From a virus, in the IMG/VR virus record IMGVR_UViG_3300030450_000698, positions 1 to 23,214 of that record: a stretch of DNA of 23,214 nucleotides. One strand, written 5' to 3'. Each line of letters opens with the position of its first letter. Positions within the stretch are counted from its first letter, which is position 1. This document shows positions 1,758-22,362 of the stretch, piece by piece. A model generated the notes under the pieces. That model made no database searches. It saw nothing but the letters and a program-made list of their open reading frames with translations, and was not told the origin of the DNA. The position numbers were made by a program, and so were the translations under genes.

Positions 1758-1917
1758 TCTCTCCAGGGAATAAGTTCTTTCTTACTAGACCTACTGCAGC
1801 ATCATCGATGGTGTTGTCGGTAGACTTAGCATAAGCTTCTAAAAGGTCTACAACTAGTTTTTTAACTGATTTAGAACTCAAGAAGGTGAATAGTATCGGC
1901 TTAATTAGTAGAATCAT
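1750..1917 (-). CDS. Conserved small protein, 55 aa, amphipathic N-terminus
   Basis: A short gene starting MILLIKPILFTFLSS at ATG 1917-1915 and ending ...NLFPGENV at TAA 1752-1750. The first ~15 residues are hydrophobic and could be a membrane-associated helix. The rest, with the motif LLEAYAKSTDNTIDD near residues 25-39, is a helical pattern I have seen in small phage proteins of unknown role; it is not diagnostic. It overlaps the end of the secreted-protein gene upstream by 17 nt and the start of the small terminase gene by 8 nt, so all three are likely translated in a coupled way. There is no clear Shine-Dalgarno site. A role in lysis or membrane association is only a guess. Confidence 0.65.
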   Translation of the reverse strand: MILLIKPILFTFLSSKSVKKLVVDLLEAYAKSTDNTIDDAAVGLVRKNLFPGENV

Positions 1918-2452
1918 TGTTTTTAGTGGTTTCTGTTTTTAATAATGACACAATAGGAACGATATCGTTACACATGTGTTCGACGCGTGAACCTGGTCTA
2001 AGGGTAAACCCCTTTTTCATAAGTTCGGCGCACTTCAGGGCGCGTACTAGTTCATAGTCCACGCGCATCTTTTCATTCTGACGTCTAGCTAGAGACTTAC
2101 ACATCTCAGTGATGGATGAATCCATAGGAACCATGAAGTTTATTTGAGCGCCGTAGTTCCAGCCTCTCGAATAACTTTCAGGATCATAAGGTTTATTCTC
2201 ACTAGCTAACCAGAAAGGAGAAAAGGTCATGGTAGGACCATTACAGGCTATACCACGACCATTATATCCTCCCATTTGTTGTCTACTTGGAGCACCATTA
2301 TTTTGGAATTGCACTGCTTGGTTGGTCACATTGCCAGTTGCAGTCGACTCAGGTGCCGCTGTATTATATGTTTCGTTCCCTTCAGCGTAGACAGGACTCG
2401 CTATTGCGAGAAGACTGATAAGGATACCGTAGTAGCGTTTGTTGTAATTGAT
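1901..2452 (-). CDS. Secreted protein (Sec signal peptide), start codon uncertain
   Basis: The C-terminal stop is TAA at 1903-1901. The protein begins with a convincing signal peptide, NKRYYGILISLLAIASPVYA followed by EG, then a ~160-residue exported part with the stretches GRGIACNGPTMTF, DPESYSRGWNYGAQ and YELVRALKCAELMKKGF and several Cys. No ATG, GTG, TTG or CTG occurs in this frame between 2620 and the signal peptide; the nearest ATG (2779) would only prepend translation of the neighbour's other frame. I placed the start at ATC 2452-2450 because it gives a normal-length signal peptide (183 aa in total), but this is tentative. The start lies inside the end of the upstream secreted-protein gene, in its -1 frame. 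Function unknown; export to the host envelope suggests an envelope or lysis-related role. Confidence 0.6.
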   Translation of the reverse strand: MNYNKRYYGILISLLAIASPVYAEGNETYNTAAPESTATGNVTNQAVQFQNNGAPSRQQMGGYNGRGIACNGPTMTFSPFWLASENKPYDPESYSRGWNYGAQINFMVPMDSSITEMCKSLARRQNEKMRVDYELVRALKCAELMKKGFTLRPGSRVEHMCNDIVPIVSLLKTETTKNNDSTN

Positions 2453-2787
2453 CTGTCTATGTCTATTGTTTCTAAGAGAACTAAACCAGTTGTTGCATCT
2501 GCTGCTCTGGTTACTGTCTCTAGTTGAAAGTCTTCTCCAGCTGTAGTTATGCTGAAGATAGCGTCTGAGGCTGTTATACCTCCGTTTGAAGCTGAAGTAG
2601 CTGTAACATTTGTTCCAGTCCAGCTGTTTAATTCTCCGCCATAGACTTTTTGTTCGACTGTCTCTGTGACTGTCTGAACTGTTGTGGTGGTAGCGTTCAT
2701 TGAGCCTTGAGTAAAGGCTGGTGTAACTGTGTTTGCTCTTGCTACCGAGGGGGATAACAGTGCTAAGAGAATTAACCATCGTTTCAT
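2401..2787 (-). CDS. Secreted Thr-rich protein (Sec signal peptide), 128 aa
   Basis: Starts MKRWLILLALLSPSVARA at ATG 2787-2785, a textbook Sec signal peptide (Lys-Arg, hydrophobic core, small-residue cleavage site near residue 18). The mature part is rich in Thr, Ser and Ala, with TPAFTQGSMNATTTTVQT near residues 22-39 and a SWTGTN segment near residue 55. It ends in ...TTVSLSVFSQ. There is no further membrane segment, no lipobox and no enzyme motif. The gene starts inside the stop of the holin-like gene (ATGA overlap) and ends within the signal-peptide code of the next secreted protein. I do not recognise a function; an exported envelope protein produced late in infection fits the sequence. 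Confidence 0.75.
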   Translation of the reverse strand: MKRWLILLALLSPSVARANTVTPAFTQGSMNATTTTVQTVTETVEQKVYGGELNSWTGTNVTATSASNGGITASDAIFSITTAGEDFQLETVTRAADATTGLVLLETIDIDRSITTNATTVSLSVFSQ

Positions 2788-3483: not shown

Positions 3484-3620
3484 GTAATTGCACCACCTGG
3501 TACTTTATTACGTTGTTGTTGTGTAGATAACCTTAACCAATTAGCTGGATACTTAGTACCATCTTTATCAGTAAAAGGTTTATCTATTTGAAGCGGTTTA
3601 TCTTGATATTTATATCCCAT
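3468..3620 (-). CDS. Conserved 50-aa protein with Y-P-A-N-W-L-R-L motif
   Basis: A short gene from ATG 3620-3618 to TAG 3470-3468, beginning MGYKYQDKPLQIDKPFTDKD. The segment KYPANWLRLSTQQQRNKVPG (about residues 23-42) resembles a short motif found in marine phage tail and fibre-associated proteins, where a 'PxNWLRLxxxEER' stretch recurs. The start overlaps the stop of the giant adhesin gene (TAATG), with AGGG 9 nt upstream, so it is probably translated by coupling after the adhesin. Coupling and motif together suggest a fibre-associated accessory protein or chaperone, as inference only. Confidence 0.6.
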   Translation of the reverse strand: MGYKYQDKPLQIDKPFTDKDGTKYPANWLRLSTQQQRNKVPGGAITWEPD

Positions 3621-6600
3621 TAGCGTGCCCTCGATTTTTTAAATGGATGCTCTGCCCAAGCCATGTAATAGTATTTAGTACCATTTGTATTGACAATTGC
3701 GTCAGTACTTTTCGTAACAAAACCATTACTTACGAAGTCTTTTTTAAAGCCAGCATAAGTGCTTTCTAAATCTGTTGTATTACCTCTTAGAGCCTTATCA
3801 GTTAAATTATAAGGACTTCTTTCGTCATCCCATATAATCCAATTTTCTCCTGATATATTAGGTTTGACAATAAGGAGTTTTGGCTGAAAACCAGTATATA
3901 CGAAATTAGGAGATACACCTGAGCCGATGTATGTTCCAAACGCAGAATAACCTGGTATAGCAGTCCAAGCATACATTATAGTCGGATTACCATTCCTATT
4001 GGAATCTTCATTTGCACCTAGTGTAACAACAGTATTAGTAAAGTCCAAGTCATCCCAAACAGTAGCACTAGTTTCTACATCATCATTAGTATTTAGTATC
4101 AGGTGCTCATCCTTGTCTAAACCATTATGCCAAACAACCCAATTCCTTGCTGCTAAAGTGTTTTTACACATAACAAGATCAGGTTTAGCTCCTAAAGCAT
4201 GTCCAACAGTTTTTCCTGCAGATTCCAATCCGCTATATAGAGTAATACTAAAACCAGCTGTAGCGTTTACCCACTGAGCACTTGGTGTAATATTTCCATC
4301 TGTTGAAGCTGTAGCTGCAGTTGCTCCAGCATCCCAAGCCCAAGCTACATAGTTTTTCCCAACTTCATATCCAGATTCAATAAATGTACCTAATTGGAAT
4401 CCATCAGAATTAAAAGCTTTAATACCTTCAGCTTGTGTCCCTTGTACATTATTCCCATCTGTTATAAAGTATTTAGTAGCACCCCTCGCTTGATCCCATA
4501 TATGAGGATGATATCCTCCACCAGAAGGTCCATACATCTTAGTCCAAACCAAATCAGGACCAAAGTTAAATCCTTTTATATCAGTATCATCAACACCATT
4601 ACCAACATAAGTTTTTACATCAAAATACTTAGATGGATCATTTATCTGATCTCCACTGAATGTATCTGGTAGGTTTGTGGTACATAAACATTTATAATCT
4701 GCAGATGGTCTATTAGACCCAGCATTTTGATACTTAAATGGTCTTTGCCCGAAGTTAACTCTGAACTTAACATTGTTAGCATTGTTAGCACTTGAAGTTG
4801 AAAAGAAAGGTACAAACAAACCAGTTTTACCTGTTACTAAAGCAGTACCACTGTTCTCAGCAACTCCGTTTTTCCAGAAGTAAAGATTGCCATTATCAGC
4901 ATCCCATTGGACACCTATAACATCTCCGGCTGTATAAGTATTTCCATAAGCTGATGTTGATCCATCGATATTTTTATTACCACCTGCACCATAAGCGGCT
5001 TGAGTACCTACGTTCCAATCAGCATGTATATCTGCATCAGGATGGATAATACCTATATATCCAGTATTAGGAGAATTAACGTACTCTACTTCCCAATAAT
5101 ATTTGCCACTAGAAGCACCTAATGTACAAGCTAATTTACTAGATGGATAACCTTCTGCCTCTAAATTTCCTTGACGTAAAGTCCAAGAACCATAACCCCA
5201 GTTAATGTTAGTTAACGGGTTCATCGTTGCATAGTTACCTCTCGTTACACCACCTGTGGCATCACTACCAACTGCTGGTTCGTAATTCGTAGGAGAGTCT
5301 GTGGAAAAATCTACACCTGATAATGGATCATCTGTCACAATTGTACCATCAACTCTTACAGCATAGATATGGCTACCACCATAACTAACTTTAACTTGAA
5401 TAGGACCAGCTAGTGTACCTGTAAAATTAGTTCCACTTTGAGAGTTTGCGTTATATAAAGGTCTCCAATGACTTCCAGTACCGGCATCGCTATCACATTG
5501 ATATTCATTACCATTACCATCTTTTATAGTATTAACTTGACCGTTTTCGTCATTCGTAAAAATCTCAAAAGATGTATTTACAGTAATTGATTGAGAGGTT
5601 AATTCTTCATAACTTTGACCAGTAACGCCTCCTTGAGTAGAAGTGCTTCCATCCCATATAGCACTAGTCCAATCACTACCTGATGTGTATATTGTTCCAG
5701 TTGCTGTTGCAGTTAAATTATCAACTAGGAAATCATCTCTTTTTGGTACTACAAAAGCTGAAGTGTATTTAGAAACACCTTTATAAACTCTAAAGTCATT
5801 TATATAGCCTGCAAAAGTTCTATTCATGTCACTACTTAGATTCATTTGTCCTAAGTAGACACCTCTATCTCCTGTCCAGTCTGTACTATAACTTGTATCA
5901 GTTTTCAGTTCACCGTTAACAAATGTTTTTAATTTACTATTAGTAGAATCATAGACAACAGCAAAATGCGTCCAACTGTTTAGAAGAGATGCACTTGACA
6001 TTACAGTCTGATAGCCTAAACTATTACTATTTACGGAATAATATATCACTAAATTTGCATCAGTAATCGCTAGCCATAACCATCCACCACCGTAAGAGTT
6101 AGTAGCATTAGCATCAAAATCAAATACCGTTTGATTAGACCCACCGTTACGGGTGTCATCGGTTTGATAAAACCAGCATTCAACTGTAAAATCACCTGTA
6201 CCAAAGTTAAAGTCACTTCCTGCGTTAGCAGCTGTAACATGTACATTCTTAGCTACGTTATAAGCACCAAAGTCTAGAGACTTACCATAGAATCTACTAT
6301 CAACCGTAGTTGTATCACATGAATTACTTATTGTTACTGTTTTAGCTGAACTTCCTGTATTTACATGGTCGTGTTCATCTGTTAATCCATCACCAGGTAA
6401 TGCGAATACAAGTCCTGTTCCATCTGTGGTTCCTGCAGAACTATCTGTTCTATATCCAGATCCTTTTTTTGCACCATTATCATATCCATCACTTCCTGCT
6501 GTTGTATTATAGAAAGGTAAACCACCATTAACAGAAGAATCTTCTATCCCTAAGTTGGTTCCTATAAAGTTTCTACCTAAGCTTGAGTCAACTGTTGTAT

Positions 6601-8089
6601 CTGATAACTTCATGTGGAAACTGTTATCAACTACTGAATCAAGTAAGTACTGACCATCGATTTCAATTATAGCAACAGAACTTTGTTCAGCACCAGAAGG
6701 ACCACAATACCAAGCTATAGAACTAATACTTGTATAACCTGTATATTCAATCCAACCGTATGTTCCAGAAGCTAAATTAGTATTATTTTGAGTGCCGTTT
6801 ATTTTAAAATTACCATTAGTAGTTTTATATGCAAAATAAATTCTTAGTTTGCTCATTTCAATAGCGGTTGGTGGTGTCCATGTAACCCAAGAATCAGATG
6901 CTGGGACACTTCTATTAGCATGGGTACCATTAAAAGCTTGAGCTATAGGATATGCTTCATATGCAGAGCCTGTTGTATTAGTTGAACTATGTACAGTACC
7001 ATCATTAAGTTTAGGTCGATCCGTTGGGTCAACTGTACCGTCTACAAGAATGACACCATCGACTTCAATGGCTGCTATACGTCCATTAGAACCACTAGCA
7101 CCCTTTACTGCAATTTCAGTTAATGAAGCTGGTATAGCAGTGGGCTCAATGTCATACCATCTGCCAGTACCATTTACTGGAGCTGGAGTTGTGTTAACAC
7201 TAACACCATTAAGCTTAAAATCTCCAACATAAGCACAGTAAATTCTTAAATTTGATACACCTTCAAACGCTGACGTAGGTCTAAAATATATCCAACCTGC
7301 ATATGGATCAGATTCGTTACCTACAGCTCCATTATCTTCTAGAACATTAGAGAATGCTTCGGTAGCACCATGACCACTTTGGAAATTTGTTGCTGTAGCA
7401 CTACCATTATATGTAGCATTACTTGTATATAACTTGCTACTCCACGTAGTTCCATTATTAGGAGCTGGACGTGAAAAGGTTTTCGGATTCCATACACCCG
7501 TTGAATCGAAGGATCCGAATGCAGTCGGGGACAAGGTGAGTCCATCAATACTTTGTATATCAGCAAACTGCCAGTGACCACTTCGACCAATCCTGGTACC
7601 ACCAAACATTACAAATCCGCCTTTTCTATTCCAATCAGCTTCAACATATTGAGCTGGCAGAGTATTTGCAGTTAGAGTTAGTTTTCTTCCGTTTATATAT
7701 AATTTTACACGTTCAGTATCCGTTGGATGGTATGAATCAAAAGTTGCAACTAAATGATACCAGCTGCTGACATCATTGAATTGGTCAACAGTTTCTACAT
7801 AATAACTAGGGTTCCAGTACCATTGAATTTCACCAGTAGATTTAAAATAGAACTGATTTTCTTTGCCACCTTCATAGGCACCCCACAAATATGTGCTTAG
7901 GTTATTATCCATGGTTTTTTTAAACCAAAAAGAAACTGTCCACCTACGACCATCGCCAGATTGAGACAAGTATTTCCTAAGATTAGGACCTTCTGAACTT
8001 TCAAACCTAAGAGAACCTTCTATATCATAACGATCTTCATCTGAAATTGCAGCAGTACCCTGCATCATTGTGTTACTTAGTACTGCCAT
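3620..8089 (-). CDS. Giant multi-domain fibre/adhesin with LamG-like and SPRY-like domains, 1489 aa
   Basis: Domains in order: a LamG/concanavalin-like domain at residues ~24-200 (RRWTVSFWFKK, WYHLVATFD, LYINGRKL); two related beta modules at ~235-350 and ~385-490, each with 'LRIY-A..' then 'F-K-(L/I)-N-G' and ending 'I-E-(V/I)-D-G'; a second LamG domain at ~565-790 (DFTVECWFYQTDD, WTHFAVVYDS, TFVNGELK, GYINDFRVYKG); a third, more diverged copy of the beta module at ~810-925; a SPRY/B30.2-like domain at ~935-1120 (GKYYWEVEY, YTAGDVIGVQWDADNGNLYF); and three C-terminal repeats at ~1170-1485. Such lectin-type folds bind glycans or proteins, so this is most likely a receptor- or cell-surface-binding virion protein. 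It starts 1 nt after the 329-aa fibre gene and probably belongs to the same tail complex. It lacks an N-terminal anchor of T7 gp17 type. Confidence 0.85.
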   Translation of the reverse strand: MAVLSNTMMQGTAAISDEDRYDIEGSLRFESSEGPNLRKYLSQSGDGRRWTVSFWFKKTMDNNLSTYLWGAYEGGKENQFYFKSTGEIQWYWNPSYYVETVDQFNDVSSWYHLVATFDSYHPTDTERVKLYINGRKLTLTANTLPAQYVEADWNRKGGFVMFGGTRIGRSGHWQFADIQSIDGLTLSPTAFGSFDSTGVWNPKTFSRPAPNNGTTWSSKLYTSNATYNGSATATNFQSGHGATEAFSNVLEDNGAVGNESDPYAGWIYFRPTSAFEGVSNLRIYCAYVGDFKLNGVSVNTTPAPVNGTGRWYDIEPTAIPASLTEIAVKGASGSNGRIAAIEVDGVILVDGTVDPTDRPKLNDGTVHSSTNTTGSAYEAYPIAQAFNGTHANRSVPASDSWVTWTPPTAIEMSKLRIYFAYKTTNGNFKINGTQNNTNLASGTYGWIEYTGYTSISSIAWYCGPSGAEQSSVAIIEIDGQYLLDSVVDNSFHMKLSDTTVDSSLGRNFIGTNLGIEDSSVNGGLPFYNTTAGSDGYDNGAKKGSGYRTDSSAGTTDGTGLVFALPGDGLTDEHDHVNTGSSAKTVTISNSCDTTTVDSRFYGKSLDFGAYNVAKNVHVTAANAGSDFNFGTGDFTVECWFYQTDDTRNGGSNQTVFDFDANATNSYGGGWLWLAITDANLVIYYSVNSNSLGYQTVMSSASLLNSWTHFAVVYDSTNSKLKTFVNGELKTDTSYSTDWTGDRGVYLGQMNLSSDMNRTFAGYINDFRVYKGVSKYTSAFVVPKRDDFLVDNLTATATGTIYTSGSDWTSAIWDGSTSTQGGVTGQSYEELTSQSITVNTSFEIFTNDENGQVNTIKDGNGNEYQCDSDAGTGSHWRPLYNANSQSGTNFTGTLAGPIQVKVSYGGSHIYAVRVDGTIVTDDPLSGVDFSTDSPTNYEPAVGSDATGGVTRGNYATMNPLTNINWGYGSWTLRQGNLEAEGYPSSKLACTLGASSGKYYWEVEYVNSPNTGYIGIIHPDADIHADWNVGTQAAYGAGGNKNIDGSTSAYGNTYTAGDVIGVQWDADNGNLYFWKNGVAENSGTALVTGKTGLFVPFFSTSSANNANNVKFRVNFGQRPFKYQNAGSNRPSADYKCLCTTNLPDTFSGDQINDPSKYFDVKTYVGNGVDDTDIKGFNFGPDLVWTKMYGPSGGGYHPHIWDQARGATKYFITDGNNVQGTQAEGIKAFNSDGFQLGTFIESGYEVGKNYVAWAWDAGATAATASTDGNITPSAQWVNATAGFSITLYSGLESAGKTVGHALGAKPDLVMCKNTLAARNWVVWHNGLDKDEHLILNTNDDVETSATVWDDLDFTNTVVTLGANEDSNRNGNPTIMYAWTAIPGYSAFGTYIGSGVSPNFVYTGFQPKLLIVKPNISGENWIIWDDERSPYNLTDKALRGNTTDLESTYAGFKKDFVSNGFVTKSTDAIVNTNGTKYYYMAWAEHPFKKSRAR

Positions 8090-9080: not shown

Positions 9081-10616
9081 TTAAGTAAAGACTCCTCCAT
9101 CGTAAGTGTTTGATAAAGCTGCTGTACTTGATGCATTATCAAAGTTACCAGCATCTATTATTTGGTGTGCTGTTCTATCAAATGCAGTATTCATCTGCAT
9201 ACAATTACCCATATAAGCATGGGATGAACATTGGTAGTGTAGAATTGTAGGGTTAGTATCAGATGTAACTATCTGTGTATAAGCACCTGCATTACCAGGT
9301 GTACCATTTGTAGTTACTCCTGTTGAATAACCTGTAGATTTATCTGCTACCTCATAGAAAGCAAGAGGATGTCCCGAATTAGAACTATCTGCTTGGTCAA
9401 ATTTATAAGTCATTCCTGGGTTAAGTTCTAGGAATGGAGCCATTTGGTCATCTAAGGTAAAACCAGAAGAATGACCAGAGCCATTATATCTATGTAAGGA
9501 AGTCTTTGTTGCTACCTTAACTGTATAAGTTACAGTAGGTCCAAAGGTACGTGTATCTGAAACATATCTCTCTTCTGGATCATTAGCAAAATAACTAGCC
9601 CAAGCATAAGTCTTACTTGAATGAGTATAAGACACACGAACTGTTAATCCTGCACTTCCTTGGAAGGTACTAGGTATACCACTCAATGTATAATTAACTG
9701 AGTTAGTAGTCCATGTAGCGTTAACTAAAGTACTTGAATCAGCTATTTCATAATAACCATCTTCACTGGGTTCTGTCGCCACTAAGGCTGCTTTATTTGC
9801 TTTTGGTGTATATAACACAGCAGCGGAAACAGCAGCACTAGCTGCATTAGCTGTAGTTACAGCGTTAGAAGCATTAGTTGAAGCCGTGTTAGCTGTGTTA
9901 TTAGCTGTTGTGGCAGTGGAGCTTGCTGTGTTGGCTGTTGATACAGCAGCCGAAGCGTTCGTCGAAGCTGTGTTTGCCGTCGCTGTAGCGCTATCTGCTT
10001 TTGTATCAGCTGCGTTTGCTGTGGTGTTGGCGGTTGTCGCCGTACTAGACGCTGTATTCGCTGTATTAACTGCATTGGTGGCGTTGGTGGAAGCTGTGTT
10101 GGCTGTATTGACAGCTGTTGTTGCGTTTGAAGAAGCTGTACTTGCTGTAGAACTTGCAGTATTTGCAGTAGTCACAGCGTTAGAAGCATTCGTACTTGCG
10201 GTATTAGCAGTTGTTACAGCGGTAGTAGCTTTTGTAATAGCAGAAACGTAAGCCCCACTTTCAAGCACCCTAGAATTACTAAGAGCTTCAGTGGAATCAT
10301 TTTCTGCTTCTTGAGTAACGTATAAATTTTGGTTATAGTTATCATTGAGATCACTGGATCTAATTGCTGAACCTGGGTAGAAGGTAGCAGCAAGTTTAGA
10401 ACTATCTGTATCTCTATAAATCTTTACCTTTTTAGTATTAGCAGGTGCTGTACCAAATCGGATTGTTGTTGCATTATGTAATGAGTAATGAGTTGTAAGC
10501 TCTTGAAGAACTTCATCGACACTAACTTTAATGTCGGTAGTATTTTGATATGGAAATGTAAAAGCAAAATCGACGGTGGAACCGTTTGCTGTATATGTAT
10601 TTGAGGTTGTAGCCAT
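9081..10616 (-). CDS. Tail fibre protein with T7 gp17-type N-terminus, 511 aa
   Basis: Residues 1-~115 match the N-terminal virion-attachment domain of T7 tail fibre gp17 (TYTANGSTVDFAFTFPYQNT, FGTAPANTKKVKIYRDTD, SDLNDNYNQNLYVTQEAE). Residues 136-261 are 18 uninterrupted heptads built from T/A/N/S with Ala at two fixed positions, an alanine coiled-coil shaft. Residues ~268-390 are a beta-rich region. Residues ~400-476 resemble a cupredoxin-like domain (SGHPLAFY ... YQCSSHAYMGNC). The C-terminus ends DAGNFDNASS...YDGGVFT. The protein is about the length of T7 gp17 (553 aa). It should join the tail at the gp11/gp12 junction and carry or connect the other two fibre proteins encoded next. The fibre role is firm; the metal-site reading is a hypothesis. 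Confidence 0.92.
   Translation of the reverse strand: MATTSNTYTANGSTVDFAFTFPYQNTTDIKVSVDEVLQELTTHYSLHNATTIRFGTAPANTKKVKIYRDTDSSKLAATFYPGSAIRSSDLNDNYNQNLYVTQEAENDSTEALSNSRVLESGAYVSAITKATTAVTTANTASTNASNAVTTANTASSTASTASSNATTAVNTANTASTNATNAVNTANTASSTATTANTTANAADTKADSATATANTASTNASAAVSTANTASSTATTANNTANTASTNASNAVTTANAASAAVSAAVLYTPKANKAALVATEPSEDGYYEIADSSTLVNATWTTNSVNYTLSGIPSTFQGSAGLTVRVSYTHSSKTYAWASYFANDPEERYVSDTRTFGPTVTYTVKVATKTSLHRYNGSGHSSGFTLDDQMAPFLELNPGMTYKFDQADSSNSGHPLAFYEVADKSTGYSTGVTTNGTPGNAGAYTQIVTSDTNPTILHYQCSSHAYMGNCMQMNTAFDRTAHQIIDAGNFDNASSTAALSNTYDGGVFT
9834..10211 (-). repeat. 21-nt-period tandem repeat encoding 18 alanine heptads
   Basis: Within the tail fibre gene, residues 136-261 divide into 18 consecutive heptads such as TANTAST, NASNAVT, TANTASS, NATNAVN. 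Ala is nearly invariant at positions 2 and 5 of each heptad. At DNA level this is a degenerate 21-nt period. Ala at the core positions of a heptad suggests a tight coiled-coil shaft. Codon choice varies between copies, so the DNA repeats are diverged and not recent duplicates. Confidence 0.85.
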
Positions 10617-17318: not shown

Positions 17319-18518
17319 TTAGGTTGTAACGACTTCCATAGTGACATCCAGCTTACTGTAGTCAACGTAGTAGAATCCGTCTTTTTCTTTTTGTCCAACG
17401 GCATCTTTACGACCCATTGCTATTAGATCTTGAGCAGATGTTCCCATATATTTAGGACCATGTACACCATCAAGTCTATATTTAAATGTATACTTAGGTA
17501 TACCAGATGGTGAAGTACCTACACGAGTTATATTATATTTAAGTCTATCATCAGATGATGCTATTGCCATTTGACCTGCAAGACCAATAACTGTACTGAG
17601 GAAACCACTTCCTCCACCACTTGCAGCAACACCTTCTGGTGGGTGTATATCCTGCCATTGCTCTTGTGTTGGTGTATCTGGTGGTAGTACAAAGTTAGGT
17701 GCGGGTATAGTAACTGGTGGTGATGTCTGAGGTGCTAATGTAGGTGACGGTGCGAGTTGAGCTTCTGCAGCTAAATCAGCACTCCACTGTTGTAAAGCAA
17801 CTTGTGTTTGATCTGCATCATACTGAGACCTAGCACTAGACATAGACTCTCTTAATTGAGTCTGACCTAATGTAGCAGTCTTCTGCAGTTTCTCCATTGT
17901 AAATGCATAACCAACTTCATCTTTAATTACTGCATCTATCAATCCTGATTGAACTCTAGCTTGACCTGCAAGAGCTGCTTGTAGATTCTTTCTTGCACTA
18001 CGTCCAGTTTGACCCATGTTTAGGATCTTACCTTTTTGAGACAACCCTTCTATTTTAGCTTCTTCCATTTTACCTGAAGCTGCAGATTTTTTAGCTTCTA
18101 AATCTAACTTTGCTGCACGCTTATCAAAACCAAGATTCATTAATAGATCTTCATTCTTGAAGCCTATCTCCATTAATCTTTCGTTATACTTACGTGTATT
18201 ATCATTGGTAGTAATTTCAGCAGCTAATTGGTTGTAATCTTTCTGTACTTCATAAGCTTCTACACTAGCATTAAAAGCAGCTACTTGGTTGTTATAATCA
18301 AATATACGAATAGCTTCTTTATCTAACCATTCGTTAGTAGCTACTTGATTCTCATATGTAATCCTATTTTCTTCATTCTCTTTAGTAGCATAGAATTGAT
18401 CTAATTGATATTGAGCAGCATTTTCCATCTGCCCCCAATCAAATTCCCATTTAGCTCTATTATAAGCATTTTGGTTTTCGACGTTTTGCGCTTGACCGCC
18501 GCCGCCTCCACCTCCCAT
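17319..18518 (-). CDS. Internal virion protein B (gp14-like) with C-terminal S74-type self-cleaving domain, 399 aa
   Basis: Starts with a Met followed by seven Gly, then a helical, Gln/Asn/Glu-rich coiled-coil region (residues ~15-255). A Pro-rich linker follows at ~256-295 (LAPSPTLAPQTSPPV...), then a Gly-rich hydrophobic stretch GGGSGFLSTVIGLAGQ at ~301-316. The last ~78 residues match the peptidase S74 / intramolecular-chaperone family: SSDDRLKYNITRVG at 321-334, with Ser322 and Lys327 at the 5-residue spacing of the endosialidase Ser/Lys dyad, then KYMGTSAQDLIAMG and the GFYYVDYSKLDV end. Family knowledge predicts cleavage just before Ser322. Position between gp13-like and gp15-like genes gives the gp14 role; T7 gp14 is only 196 aa and has no such domain. 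AGGAGGT precedes the start. Confidence 0.85.
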   Translation of the reverse strand: MGGGGGGGQAQNVENQNAYNRAKWEFDWGQMENAAQYQLDQFYATKENEENRITYENQVATNEWLDKEAIRIFDYNNQVAAFNASVEAYEVQKDYNQLAAEITTNDNTRKYNERLMEIGFKNEDLLMNLGFDKRAAKLDLEAKKSAASGKMEEAKIEGLSQKGKILNMGQTGRSARKNLQAALAGQARVQSGLIDAVIKDEVGYAFTMEKLQKTATLGQTQLRESMSSARSQYDADQTQVALQQWSADLAAEAQLAPSPTLAPQTSPPVTIPAPNFVLPPDTPTQEQWQDIHPPEGVAASGGGSGFLSTVIGLAGQMAIASSDDRLKYNITRVGTSPSGIPKYTFKYRLDGVHGPKYMGTSAQDLIAMGRKDAVGQKEKDGFYYVDYSKLDVTMEVVTT

Positions 18519-18529: not shown

Positions 18530-18947
18530 AGATGTGTTTAGTGATTATGGAATATTCATTATCCCATTTTATTTTTCTAGCTAGACCTTTTCTAGTCCAC
18601 GCTTCGATTAAATTACAATTCTGAAGTTTAGCATAATCTTCGATAGTATCAAATAAATCCATCCATAACTCATAATCATGACCAGATTTTGTTGACCAAG
18701 TTATTATACGAAACACTTTCTTACGTGGATATTTAACAATCTCAGCTACTAAAGCACTTTGAATCTCATCCTTTTCAATGTCTCCACCTATAAATAAGAT
18801 CTGACTCCTATTTAAAAGAAGTTTTAAACAATCTTCTGATAACATCTCTCCATTGGTTTGACATAATACCTTATCAATCAAAGGTTTGACGTCATGCCAT
18901 ATGTATGGGATGTCTTTGGGTTCAACTCTAAGTGCTTTAATTGTCAT
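18528..18947 (-). CDS. gp13-like internal virion protein A, GNAT-like, 139 aa
   Basis: Starting at ATG 18947 (MTIKALRVEPKDIPYIWHDV) the protein is 139 residues, almost the same as T7 gp13 (138). It begins with the MTI(R/K) strand typical of acetyltransferase-like folds. Further segments ILFIGGD (residues ~50-56), SALVAEIVKYPRKKVFRIIT (about 65-84) and NLIEAWTRKGLARKIKW (about 111-127) follow the beta-alpha rhythm of that fold. In T7, gp13 is an assembly-associated protein of the internal core. A clear acetyl-CoA loop (Q/R-x-x-G-x-G/A) is not visible, so enzymatic activity is doubtful. The ATG overlaps the gp12-like stop by 4 nt (ATGA). A TTG-initiated frame from 18986 exists but lacks a ribosome site. 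Confidence 0.72.
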   Translation of the reverse strand: MTIKALRVEPKDIPYIWHDVKPLIDKVLCQTNGEMLSEDCLKLLLNRSQILFIGGDIEKDEIQSALVAEIVKYPRKKVFRIITWSTKSGHDYELWMDLFDTIEDYAKLQNCNLIEAWTRKGLARKIKWDNEYSIITKHI

Positions 18948-21736
18948 GTTCGTCGGTAATAACGGGGTGAATAATTCCCTTCCCAAGACATAGAAGTCAA
19001 GGATAAAGGAAACGGGGAGTCGCTATAGACTCTAATAGTATAATTATCTGAACGCTGATGTATAGGTACAGTAAATAAAGATTGCGCCTCTAAAGGTACA
19101 TCATCACCTAAATAATAGTTTGCATCTTGTGATGATTCTATTGTATACCAATTGTCTACATAGATCTCAATACTGTCAGCAGGAGTAGTAACGTTTGCGG
19201 CTGTAACAGCAGCAGCTGGTGCCGTACCGAATGTAACTGTAACAGCATCTGTGATACTGGAATGAGCTGCAATGGTATAATCAGTTGTAAGAGTTTGTTT
19301 AGCTCCGTTCTTTTTAACAACAACATCTTTCAAATCTTTTACAGTAAAATCTGGTGAGAATGCTGTGGTACTTCCATCACCTGTGAATGTTTGTGTAGCA
19401 GCTTGTACACCTTTTCTATTAAGTTTAAAACCTACAACACTAGATTGACCGATAGAAAACTTCATTCTAGCTATAGTTAATTGAGCAGTATAATCACTCA
19501 CTTTACCTTCTTGATCCTTTCTATAATACATCTTAGGTAAAGTTATATCATAACTATATTTATATCCTACATATACATTAGCTGCTTGTGCTTGTAATAA
19601 TTTCCCAGGAACTTCCCAGTATCCACTTCTCCTTGTTGGTGTAATAGTGAATCCAGAGTCAGTAACTCCTGAAAAATTCTGTGTACCAGCAATAAGTATA
19701 ACAGGATCTAATGTAGTGATATCCGAATATGGTAAATAAACTTTAGAAAGATTGTTCGTCGTGTCATTTACAACAGTATTACTACCATCACCAGCTTTAA
19801 CATAGAAATCCATATGTGGATTAACCTGTATTCCATCTGAAGTAACTACAATAGCTTCTTCAGGTGTCATGGTCATAGTAGCACTTACTAAATTATACCT
19901 AGCAGTACCTCCTGTACCAGTTTTAACTACAGTATACATAGTATCAGCATCTACTTCAACATGATGCACATTACCAGGGCATTGCCAGTTAAACCAACAT
20001 TGAACGAGATCTTTTTCTCCATCACTGTAGGTACGGTAGAAATATATTTTATCTTCTGTGTTACCCCACATAGCTATAAAACTATTTTGTGAGTTAGCAG
20101 TCAAGCCTGTAATAGTAGCAGGTATATACTCTGACACTGAACGTCCTATGTCTACAACTTTTGGTACTTGTCCTACACCCTGTGGTAACATACCAAATAT
20201 TCTAGTAAAACCAGCTGTATCGTGAGTCTTACTTACAAAATTAATATGTGTTCCAATATCTACTGGATCTATCTTAGTATCCATACGATAGTTAGATAGA
20301 CCACGTATTATAGCTGTTTGTGGGCTTAAGTTACCATCAGCAGCATACATAATAAACTGTTGATTCTGGCTAAATAGCAAGAGACCACCTGCTGTAGGTA
20401 TAACACCATGCAGTAAAGCTTCTTTAGTACTAGAACAACTGAGATCAATCGGATCTGAAGCTATACTTGTTTGAGCACTTTCAAAATAAAAATTAAAATA
20501 TTCTCCAGATCTACTCATAGACACATTATCTTCTGTTAAGAAGCCGAGTCTATTATTATTGTAAAAAGCTTGTTGTATTTTAGAACCTTCAAACGAGGGA
20601 TGTGAGTTACTATCGCTATCACCTACTAACCTAGGTTCTCCGAATACACCTGCTATACCATTACCATTAGGTGACACAGGGTTTTCTATAACACTAAATG
20701 TAAATGCATTCTTGGCTGTGTTATATAACTTATGAGGCATTGTTGCAGAACTTAACCCTTTATCCTCACCTGGTCCTTTAGTTTCTTCCCAAATACCAGG
20801 TCCAGAAGTTCCGTTATCTGCTTTAAATTTAGTATAGTATGTACCTACACTTGAGAATGTATTAACAACTTTAACTATACGACCATGTTTAGATTCAGAA
20901 GCTAGGTCTGTTATTTGATCTACTTCGTCTTGATATATTGTTAGTGCAGATCCAGCTCTACCTCCTTTCACTTCAACTGTGAAAGCTGCACTATGTGAAA
21001 GTTCTAAACTATTATTAATAACAGTAGCTGTTACTCCAGAAGAGCCAGCATCTATAGCTGCTTTAAGTGCAACTAGGATTTCATCAGCATCTAAGAAGTT
21101 AGTAGTATCACCATCGTTAGTAGGTGTATCACCAGCTCTAGTATTTACAGCATTAGTATAAGTAGTACCACCTGTAGTGATTCCACATAAATAATGTGAG
21201 CTGTATTCTACAGTATGTATTCTAATAGTTGCAACTTTATTTTCTACAAAAGCAGTATCAGTTACAGTTGTTATAGTTTTAAGTTTGTTAGTAATGATAG
21301 ACGTATCTCTAACATTTAAGAAATCATAATCATATGAATTTAAAGCGCTTAAATACTGTCTAGTATTACTACCATAAGTCACAGCAGCTTTTACGTAATC
21401 TCCATTACCATCTACTTCTGCGACATTCCATACATGTATAGCAGCGTCAGCTTCTGTAGCATTACCTACTATACATCCAAAATACTTTTCATCTGCATCA
21501 CGATTCACGTAGAACCATTTAGCATTATCTAAATCATTATTATCAAAAGCAGTACCACCTGTAGTAGCACTTGCTAGTTGTGTGAGAAATTTAAAACCAG
21601 GTCGTTTTGTTAAACCGAATGTAGGGTCTGGATATGCATTAACAGCACCACGTACCTGACCTGGTAATTTTTTATCATCAGGCTGGTTAGATACTCCGCC
21701 TAAGAAATTCGGTATTGTTTGAGTTACGGCTGCCAT
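18944..21736 (-). CDS. Tail tubular protein B / nozzle (gp12-like), 930 aa
   Basis: The N-terminus TIPNFLGGVSNQPDDKKLPG (about residues 8-27), followed by NAYPDPTFGLTKRPGFKFL, is the family signature of T7-like tail tubular protein B. Mid-protein segments ALLHGVIPTAGGLLLFSQNQ and KEYF-like beta turns are also typical of its beta-propeller core. It is a ring component of the short tail through which DNA passes, stacked on gp11. It is ~136 residues longer than T7 gp12 (794 aa). Part of the excess is a fibre-type module at residues ~781-862 (TQTFTGDGSTTAFSPDF ... VTFGTAPA). The C-terminus (SDSPFPLSLTSMSWEGNYSP) is standard for the family. It overlaps gp11-like by 1 nt and gp13-like by 4 nt. Confidence 0.93.
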   Translation of the reverse strand: MAAVTQTIPNFLGGVSNQPDDKKLPGQVRGAVNAYPDPTFGLTKRPGFKFLTQLASATTGGTAFDNNDLDNAKWFYVNRDADEKYFGCIVGNATEADAAIHVWNVAEVDGNGDYVKAAVTYGSNTRQYLSALNSYDYDFLNVRDTSIITNKLKTITTVTDTAFVENKVATIRIHTVEYSSHYLCGITTGGTTYTNAVNTRAGDTPTNDGDTTNFLDADEILVALKAAIDAGSSGVTATVINNSLELSHSAAFTVEVKGGRAGSALTIYQDEVDQITDLASESKHGRIVKVVNTFSSVGTYYTKFKADNGTSGPGIWEETKGPGEDKGLSSATMPHKLYNTAKNAFTFSVIENPVSPNGNGIAGVFGEPRLVGDSDSNSHPSFEGSKIQQAFYNNNRLGFLTEDNVSMSRSGEYFNFYFESAQTSIASDPIDLSCSSTKEALLHGVIPTAGGLLLFSQNQQFIMYAADGNLSPQTAIIRGLSNYRMDTKIDPVDIGTHINFVSKTHDTAGFTRIFGMLPQGVGQVPKVVDIGRSVSEYIPATITGLTANSQNSFIAMWGNTEDKIYFYRTYSDGEKDLVQCWFNWQCPGNVHHVEVDADTMYTVVKTGTGGTARYNLVSATMTMTPEEAIVVTSDGIQVNPHMDFYVKAGDGSNTVVNDTTNNLSKVYLPYSDITTLDPVILIAGTQNFSGVTDSGFTITPTRRSGYWEVPGKLLQAQAANVYVGYKYSYDITLPKMYYRKDQEGKVSDYTAQLTIARMKFSIGQSSVVGFKLNRKGVQAATQTFTGDGSTTAFSPDFTVKDLKDVVVKKNGAKQTLTTDYTIAAHSSITDAVTVTFGTAPAAAVTAANVTTPADSIEIYVDNWYTIESSQDANYYLGDDVPLEAQSLFTVPIHQRSDNYTIRVYSDSPFPLSLTSMSWEGNYSPRYYRRT

Positions 21737-22362
21737 TAGCGTTGTAGTGCTTGATAAGGTTGATAAGCATTGTATACTTTCTTACCTCTTTGATGTCCAA
21801 AGAAAGTATAGTCTCCTTGATTGCATTCATATTCCATAGCTAAAGCTCTATTCTGCATTTCTTTTTGAGCTAGTATTTGATACTGATTGGTATCACCAAC
21901 AATTCTACTAGATACAATAGCTGCAGCTCTAGCTACAATATAATCTTGAACAGGTCTAGGTAGATCAACCCAATCAAAGAACCATACTATATCACAAGCT
22001 ACTTTCTCCCAATTAGTTAGAGTAGTCCAATCATAAGTATGGTTAATTTTTTCATATAGTTTACCATTTCTTCTTACGGATTCATATTGAGAATCTTTCT
22101 CAGCATGTAAATCTATTTGTAGTATATTATTTGCTATTACAATTTCACCATTTTCATCTGGTATGATTTCATAGAACTCTTCTTTATTAAAAGTCCAGCC
22201 TTCTGCCTGTACCTCACGTGACACATTAAGTAATGTATCATAGGCAATCGCAACGTCCGGGTTGGTTTGATCCAATGTAGTTACAGGAGCCTGTCCCACA
22301 GACGCCAGTATTTCGTTTACGGCAGGTAATTCTTGAGTAGCGTTAGTGGTAGGGAAAGCCAT
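21736..22362 (-). CDS. Tail tubular protein A / adaptor (gp11-like), 208 aa
   Basis: The protein has the gp11 family layout: an N-terminal helix with AVNEILASVGQAPV (residues ~14-27), LNVSREVQAEGWTFNKEEF (about 45-63), a beta segment with NNILQID, and a C-terminal helical region with RPVQDYIVARAAAIVSSRIV (about 136-155), then ALAMEYECNQGDYTFFG. T7 gp11 is 196 aa. It forms the ring between portal and nozzle and holds the fibres in T7. It is the first gene after the intrinsic terminator, with an AT-rich leader of about 17 nt after the T-tract and no clear Shine-Dalgarno site. It shares a TAATG junction with the gp12-like gene. Confidence 0.92.
   Translation of the reverse strand: MAFPTTNATQELPAVNEILASVGQAPVTTLDQTNPDVAIAYDTLLNVSREVQAEGWTFNKEEFYEIIPDENGEIVIANNILQIDLHAEKDSQYESVRRNGKLYEKINHTYDWTTLTNWEKVACDIVWFFDWVDLPRPVQDYIVARAAAIVSSRIVGDTNQYQILAQKEMQNRALAMEYECNQGDYTFFGHQRGKKVYNAYQPYQALQR

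Follow-up and report, generated by a model that had tools for sequence, protein, structure and literature searches.

A probable cupredoxin domain with a putative type-1 copper site in a gp17-type phage tail fibre

The window, i.e. the whole stretch of DNA analysed here, is a 23214-base viral record, and its minus strand carries T7-like structural genes (Table 1). At the DNA level, its closest named relatives are mainly marine Synechococcus podoviruses, which match only around the tail-tube gene. The tail fibre is of the gp17 type, as judged by its match to Phage_T7_tail (PF03906, E=1.3e-17, 64.4 bits against a cut-off of 25.2). In this fibre, the T7 N-terminal domain is followed by a stretch rich in Ala, Asn, and Thr, and then by a cupredoxin-like region. 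Residues 361-491 match the tail fibre family PHROG 30742 (E=8.7e-46), which is annotated as tail fibre only and names neither a fold nor a metal site.

Elsewhere in the window, a 1489-aa protein with Laminin_G_3, SPRY, and DUF7483 domains is encoded at 3620-8089 (minus strand); it is likely to be a further receptor-contact or virion structural protein. Two overlapping open frames at 1901-2787 (minus strand) each have a signal-peptide-like stretch (MKRWLILLALLSPSVARA and GILISLLAIASPVYA), and no Pfam family was found for them. Pfam gave no support for an S74 domain at the end of the protein encoded at 17319-18518.

Table 1. Features of the window discussed in the text, with the basis of each assignment.
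Feature	Position	Strand	Basis
Tail tube	21736-22362	-	Pfam Tube
Nozzle	18944-21736	-	Phage_nozzle
gp17-type tail fibre gene, 511 aa	9081..10616	-	Open frame; Phage_T7_tail N-terminal domain; PHROGs tail fibre families
T7 tail-fibre N-terminal domain, residues 4-125, fibre-to-virion attachment	10242..10607	-	PF03906
Predicted cupredoxin domain, residues ~357-477	9186..9548	-	AlphaFold2 model; Foldseek PDB matches; hhalign against cellular cupredoxins
His416, first putative copper ligand	9369..9371	-	Invariant 70/70; aligned with first His ligand of cellular cupredoxins
Cys463, putative thiolate ligand, strand end	9228..9230	-	Invariant 70/70; hhalign register
His466, second putative His ligand	9219..9221	-	Invariant 70/70; hhalign register
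Met469, putative axial ligand	9210..9212	-	Invariant 70/70; hhalign register

The translation of the fibre gene contains SGHPLAFY and YQCSSHAYMGNC. When placed by script, His416, Cys463, His466, and Met469 fall exactly where a first-pass annotation of this DNA had put them, and their codons match the window sequence; the last three form a C-x2-H-x2-M loop motif. The same annotation had assigned a cupredoxin-like site to positions 9189-9419, which do correspond to residues 400-476, but the full domain is longer than this span. Another histidine, His375 (9492-9494, minus strand), lies within an insertion, TxxHRYxGxGSSxGY, and is invariant in all 57 aligned sequences that have the segment. It is not a classical type-1 ligand, and a second-shell or second-metal role is possible. 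A disulphide role for Cys463 was ruled out because Cys472 is not conserved.

A monomeric model of the domain was built with AlphaFold2 from an alignment of 70 relatives (A2); the fibre itself is expected to be trimeric. The modelled domain has nine strands, with a mean pLDDT of 90 (~97 in the core) and a pTM of 0.84. His416 lies just before one strand, Cys463 is at the end of another, and His466 and Met469 are in the loop preceding the last strand, a placement of ligands as in cupredoxins. All 50 of the matches listed by Foldseek against the PDB are proteins with cupredoxin-type folds, rusticyanin being first, and the eight matches with E<0.001 are all rusticyanin. The remaining matches listed are nitrite reductases, multicopper oxidases, laccases, purple cupredoxin, pseudoazurins, factor Va, and PAD enzymes, the last two of which we take to contain cupredoxin-type domains. 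The query-normalised TM-scores against solved cupredoxins are modest, mostly 0.37-0.53; therefore, the fibre domain appears to be a diverged cupredoxin member. Rusticyanin, in spite of its place at the top of the PDB matches (E 2e-4 to 9e-4), has a TM-score of 0.37-0.46, an identity of 12-16%, and a longer ligand loop.

In a viral structure library, the same fold was found in many cyanophage tail proteins. Same-fold matches with E about 1e-7 were also seen in BFVD for four Pithovirus and Marseillevirus entries named ‘beta-sandwich protein’ (A0A481Z6J5, A0A481Z7Q7, A0A481YWX9, and A0A481YY19). In a longer construct (residues 262-511), the domain was again modelled with a confidence of ~97, and the sequence before and after it was not confidently folded; the construct added little because the region preceding the domain is of low confidence. 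Overall, judging from the models, residues ~357-477 almost certainly adopt a cupredoxin fold: the predicted beta-sandwich is of the cupredoxin type that the first-pass annotation had suspected, and not some other fold that would have spoken against it.

The relationship is visible only with profiles and folds, since single-sequence searches of Pfam, PHROGs, and the PDB gave no cupredoxin call for the fibre domain. None of Pfam, PHROGs, and NCBIfam names the domain a cupredoxin; weak matches to the Pfam family PF25489 (At5g54830-like) are found in 15 of the 70 members, the best being 0.0023. The family profile was compared by hhalign with cellular cupredoxins gathered from genomes, with 100 column shuffles as the control. 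The score is 38.0 for a pseudoazurin-like set (shuffle maximum 19.0) and 28.6 for a short-loop set (shuffle maximum 19.4), and in both comparisons the His, Cys, and His ligands and the Met region are in register; the score for a plastocyanin set, 21.1 against a shuffle maximum of 20.7, is not convincing alone. In hhalign, the suspected kinship with cupredoxin families gave scores above all 100 shuffles; direct searches gave no significant match. The best match of the family profile among PDB sequences in hmmsearch is pseudoazurin with an E-value of 0.09-0.11, short of significance, and Pfam matches among the family members are below the cut-off.

With regard to named cupredoxins, the comparison with plastocyanin made in the first-pass annotation is imprecise. 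The plastocyanin loop is C-x2-H-x4-M, and this difference together with the hhalign score rules out membership in that family. The exact match in Cys-His-Met spacing is amicyanin, whose ligands are His53, Cys92, His95, and Met98 (PMC12723479). In the profile alignment, all four ligands of the short-loop cupredoxins are in register with those of the fibre domain. However, the distance from the first His to the Cys is 47 in the fibre domain and 39 in amicyanin, the residue after the first His is Pro instead of the Asn that small blue copper proteins usually have, and direct sequence search with the fibre domain gave no significant match to amicyanin or the short-loop proteins. Amicyanin is also a periplasmic electron carrier, whereas the fibre domain is part of a phage fibre. 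Filing the domain as amicyanin was rejected, since none of the 70 members matches TIGR02657 at the NCBIfam cut-off. Pseudoazurin, which ranks first both in the profile search of PDB sequences and in hhalign, differs in its C-x2-H-x4-M loop and in the weakness of its profile E-value.

Relatives of the domain were retrieved in several ways. A tblastn search with residues 357-477 gave 49 phage records, comprising cyanophages, Pelagibacter phages, OM43 (Methylophilales) phages, and sea-water records, and queries from two other family members gave 86 and 70 records from the same kinds of phage. In an alignment of 20 representative phage records, one viral contig, and the window, H...C-x2-H-x2-M is present in all but three, P-RSM4, S-MS29, and S-SZBM1, in which the Cys, His, and Met are absent together and the first His is retained. 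Loci ranked by similarity were also collected with a pattern made from the upstream Y-x-F-D-x-x-D-x-S segment only, 80 of them viral and 29 from genomes. Every one of these 109 relatives has C-x2-H-x2-M, which is therefore far beyond chance, because the pattern excludes those residues.

A second pattern, FDQ[SA]DSSN-x2-HP, of which the first His is itself a part, was scanned unranked in order to avoid ranking bias. Among its 80 informative copies, the exact motif is found in 74, five retain the Cys, His, and Met at an altered spacing, and a single copy, L173, has lost all three residues. Pairwise identity in A2 averages 50% and goes down to 25%; entropy is zero at each of the four ligands, the median being 1.55 bits. 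The search pattern partly imposes the invariance of Y404-S412, but it does not impose the invariance of Cys463, His466, and Met469. The first-pass annotation had held that homologues without conserved His, Cys, and Met positions would count against the site. Conservation is instead near-universal (all four ligands in 70 of 70 aligned sequences; Cys, His, and Met in 79 of 80 unranked copies), and on these sequences the type-1 ligand set, His, Cys, His, and Met in this order, is conserved in the fibre domain family.

The domain occurs in diverse surroundings. In the unranked scan, between 37 and 1076 residues lie upstream of it in the host proteins, some of which have collagen repeats, an S74 chaperone domain, or a weak T4 gp9/10-like N-terminus, and the annotations of which include baseplate wedge, tail fibre, and virion structural protein. 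The carriers are marine cyanophages, pelagiphages, and OM43 phages, as well as some marine bacteria, in which the domain is part of apparently secreted or surface proteins. Sequence comparison supports the view that the cupredoxin domain is a mobile extracellular module of marine phages of several morphotypes, present in fibre and baseplate proteins. In one locus (L158, 6383-6759), two domain-pattern matches lie 342 bases apart and are probably tandem cupredoxin domains in one protein.

Among bacteria, Candidatus Actinomarina (L130, L131, L133, and L137) has the same domain at the C-terminus of small, secreted-looking proteins in which the N-terminus is hydrophobic and the linker is long and rich in Thr. 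These resemble a surface-tethered blue copper protein and are possibly the cellular source or relatives of the phage module. The domain is present in 7 of the 42 genomes of this order. The L133 copy shares 39% identity with the domain of the window over 92 residues and, on one contig, has genes for cytochrome b561 and FAD/NAD oxidoreductase nearby. In SAR116, a copy is fused with RTX-type sequence, and a Bacteroidetes copy lies inside a 5494-residue open frame.

From the models and the conservation together, it appears quite likely that the cupredoxin domain of the fibre is genuine, that its type-1 site is complete and maintained by selection, and that this domain is a member of a mobile marine module. 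The predicted metal site is very probably functional, and its native metal is probably copper. Recurrence of the same domain in many tail and virion proteins of ocean phages suggests that the virus particles carry metal, probably copper. In the preferred scheme, the metal bound at the site would be thiophilic and most likely copper, and it may be acquired after lysis since the cytoplasm, where the fibre is assembled, has almost no free copper. The bound metal would lock the C-x2-H-x2-M loop to give a rigid and stable module in the outer fibre, and such a module may help host contact. That the role of the domain is structural or in attachment has roughly an even chance.

Other readings of the site may be considered. 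As a copper counterpart of the ferrojan-horse idea, the fibre could present copper to the host surface and dock on copper-handling proteins. Iron-binding HxH fibres are described for the T4 gp37 tip and alterophage R22Y, and iron in the HxH motifs of marine-phage fibres has been proposed to act in attachment (PMC11705849). These fibres resemble the present one in having metal ligands in a phage receptor-binding fibre, but their iron is octahedral and sits between HxH pairs that line a trimeric needle, whereas the fibre domain is predicted to form a globular type-1 site. Copper presentation would also be in keeping with the restriction of the domain to marine phages within the collection searched. 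However, no host receptor is known, the module is placed very differently among its host proteins and not only at tips, and we regard such presentation as unlikely.

The fold could also be that of a cupredoxin with zinc, some other metal, or no metal at all in the site, which would then be a structural clamp only. Fibres fold in the cytoplasm, which offers zinc but not free copper, and the few relatives without the site still keep related sequence. Nevertheless, Met469, though a weak axial ligand, shows the same invariance as the Cys and His, and a purely structural zinc site would not need such a ligand. Its invariance favours copper over zinc, although not decisively, and a mere clamp seems decidedly unlikely. 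A redox-active domain, in which copper would exchange electrons with components of the host surface or periplasm or would detoxify oxidants around the virion, agrees with the retention of all type-1 ligands and with the gene neighbourhood of the L133 copy; it appears quite improbable, as the window encodes no redox partner and the neighbourhood comes from a single contig. Finally, a fossil, i.e. an unrelated or decayed beta-sandwich with a chance or functionless motif, as the first-pass annotation had allowed, might explain why single-sequence searches name no cupredoxin, but it is very improbable for the protein of the window because the ligands stay unchanged where the remaining sequence diverges, the few losses (P-RSM4, S-MS29, S-SZBM1, and L173) are always joint, and fold search, profile comparison, and ligand invariance are concordant.

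In the open-licence literature, no report was found of a cupredoxin in a virion protein (phage tail, cyanophage), and nothing relevant was found on plastocyanin-like or copper-binding domains in phage tails. Cyanophages carry plastocyanin (petE) as a metabolic gene (PMC3037559). It is likewise a cupredoxin encoded by marine phages, but it is a photosynthesis gene used within the infected cell and not a virion protein. Both the fold of the fibre domain and its type of site are known, but no description of them in such a setting was found in the open-licence literature, and the fold may already be flagged in other databases. As far as could be traced, the metal reported in phage fibres is the iron of HxH tips (PMC11705849).

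If the cupredoxin reading is true, the globular type-1 copper site would represent a new class of virion metalloprotein, shared between fibre and virion proteins across several kinds of phage whose hosts are the most abundant bacteria of the ocean, and viruses would join the possible marine copper ligands. A wider proposal, that marine-phage fibres take copper from sea water, that the site aids attachment via redox or metal presentation, and that virions form a pool of copper ligands, is doubtful. The domain receives a name where the libraries searched label only tail fibre, and the question of copper in marine virions becomes directly testable with a small expressed domain. The copies of P-RSM4 (L024), S-SZBM1 (L029), S-MS29 (L030), and L173, the last of which has likewise kept its first His, would be natural metal-free controls.
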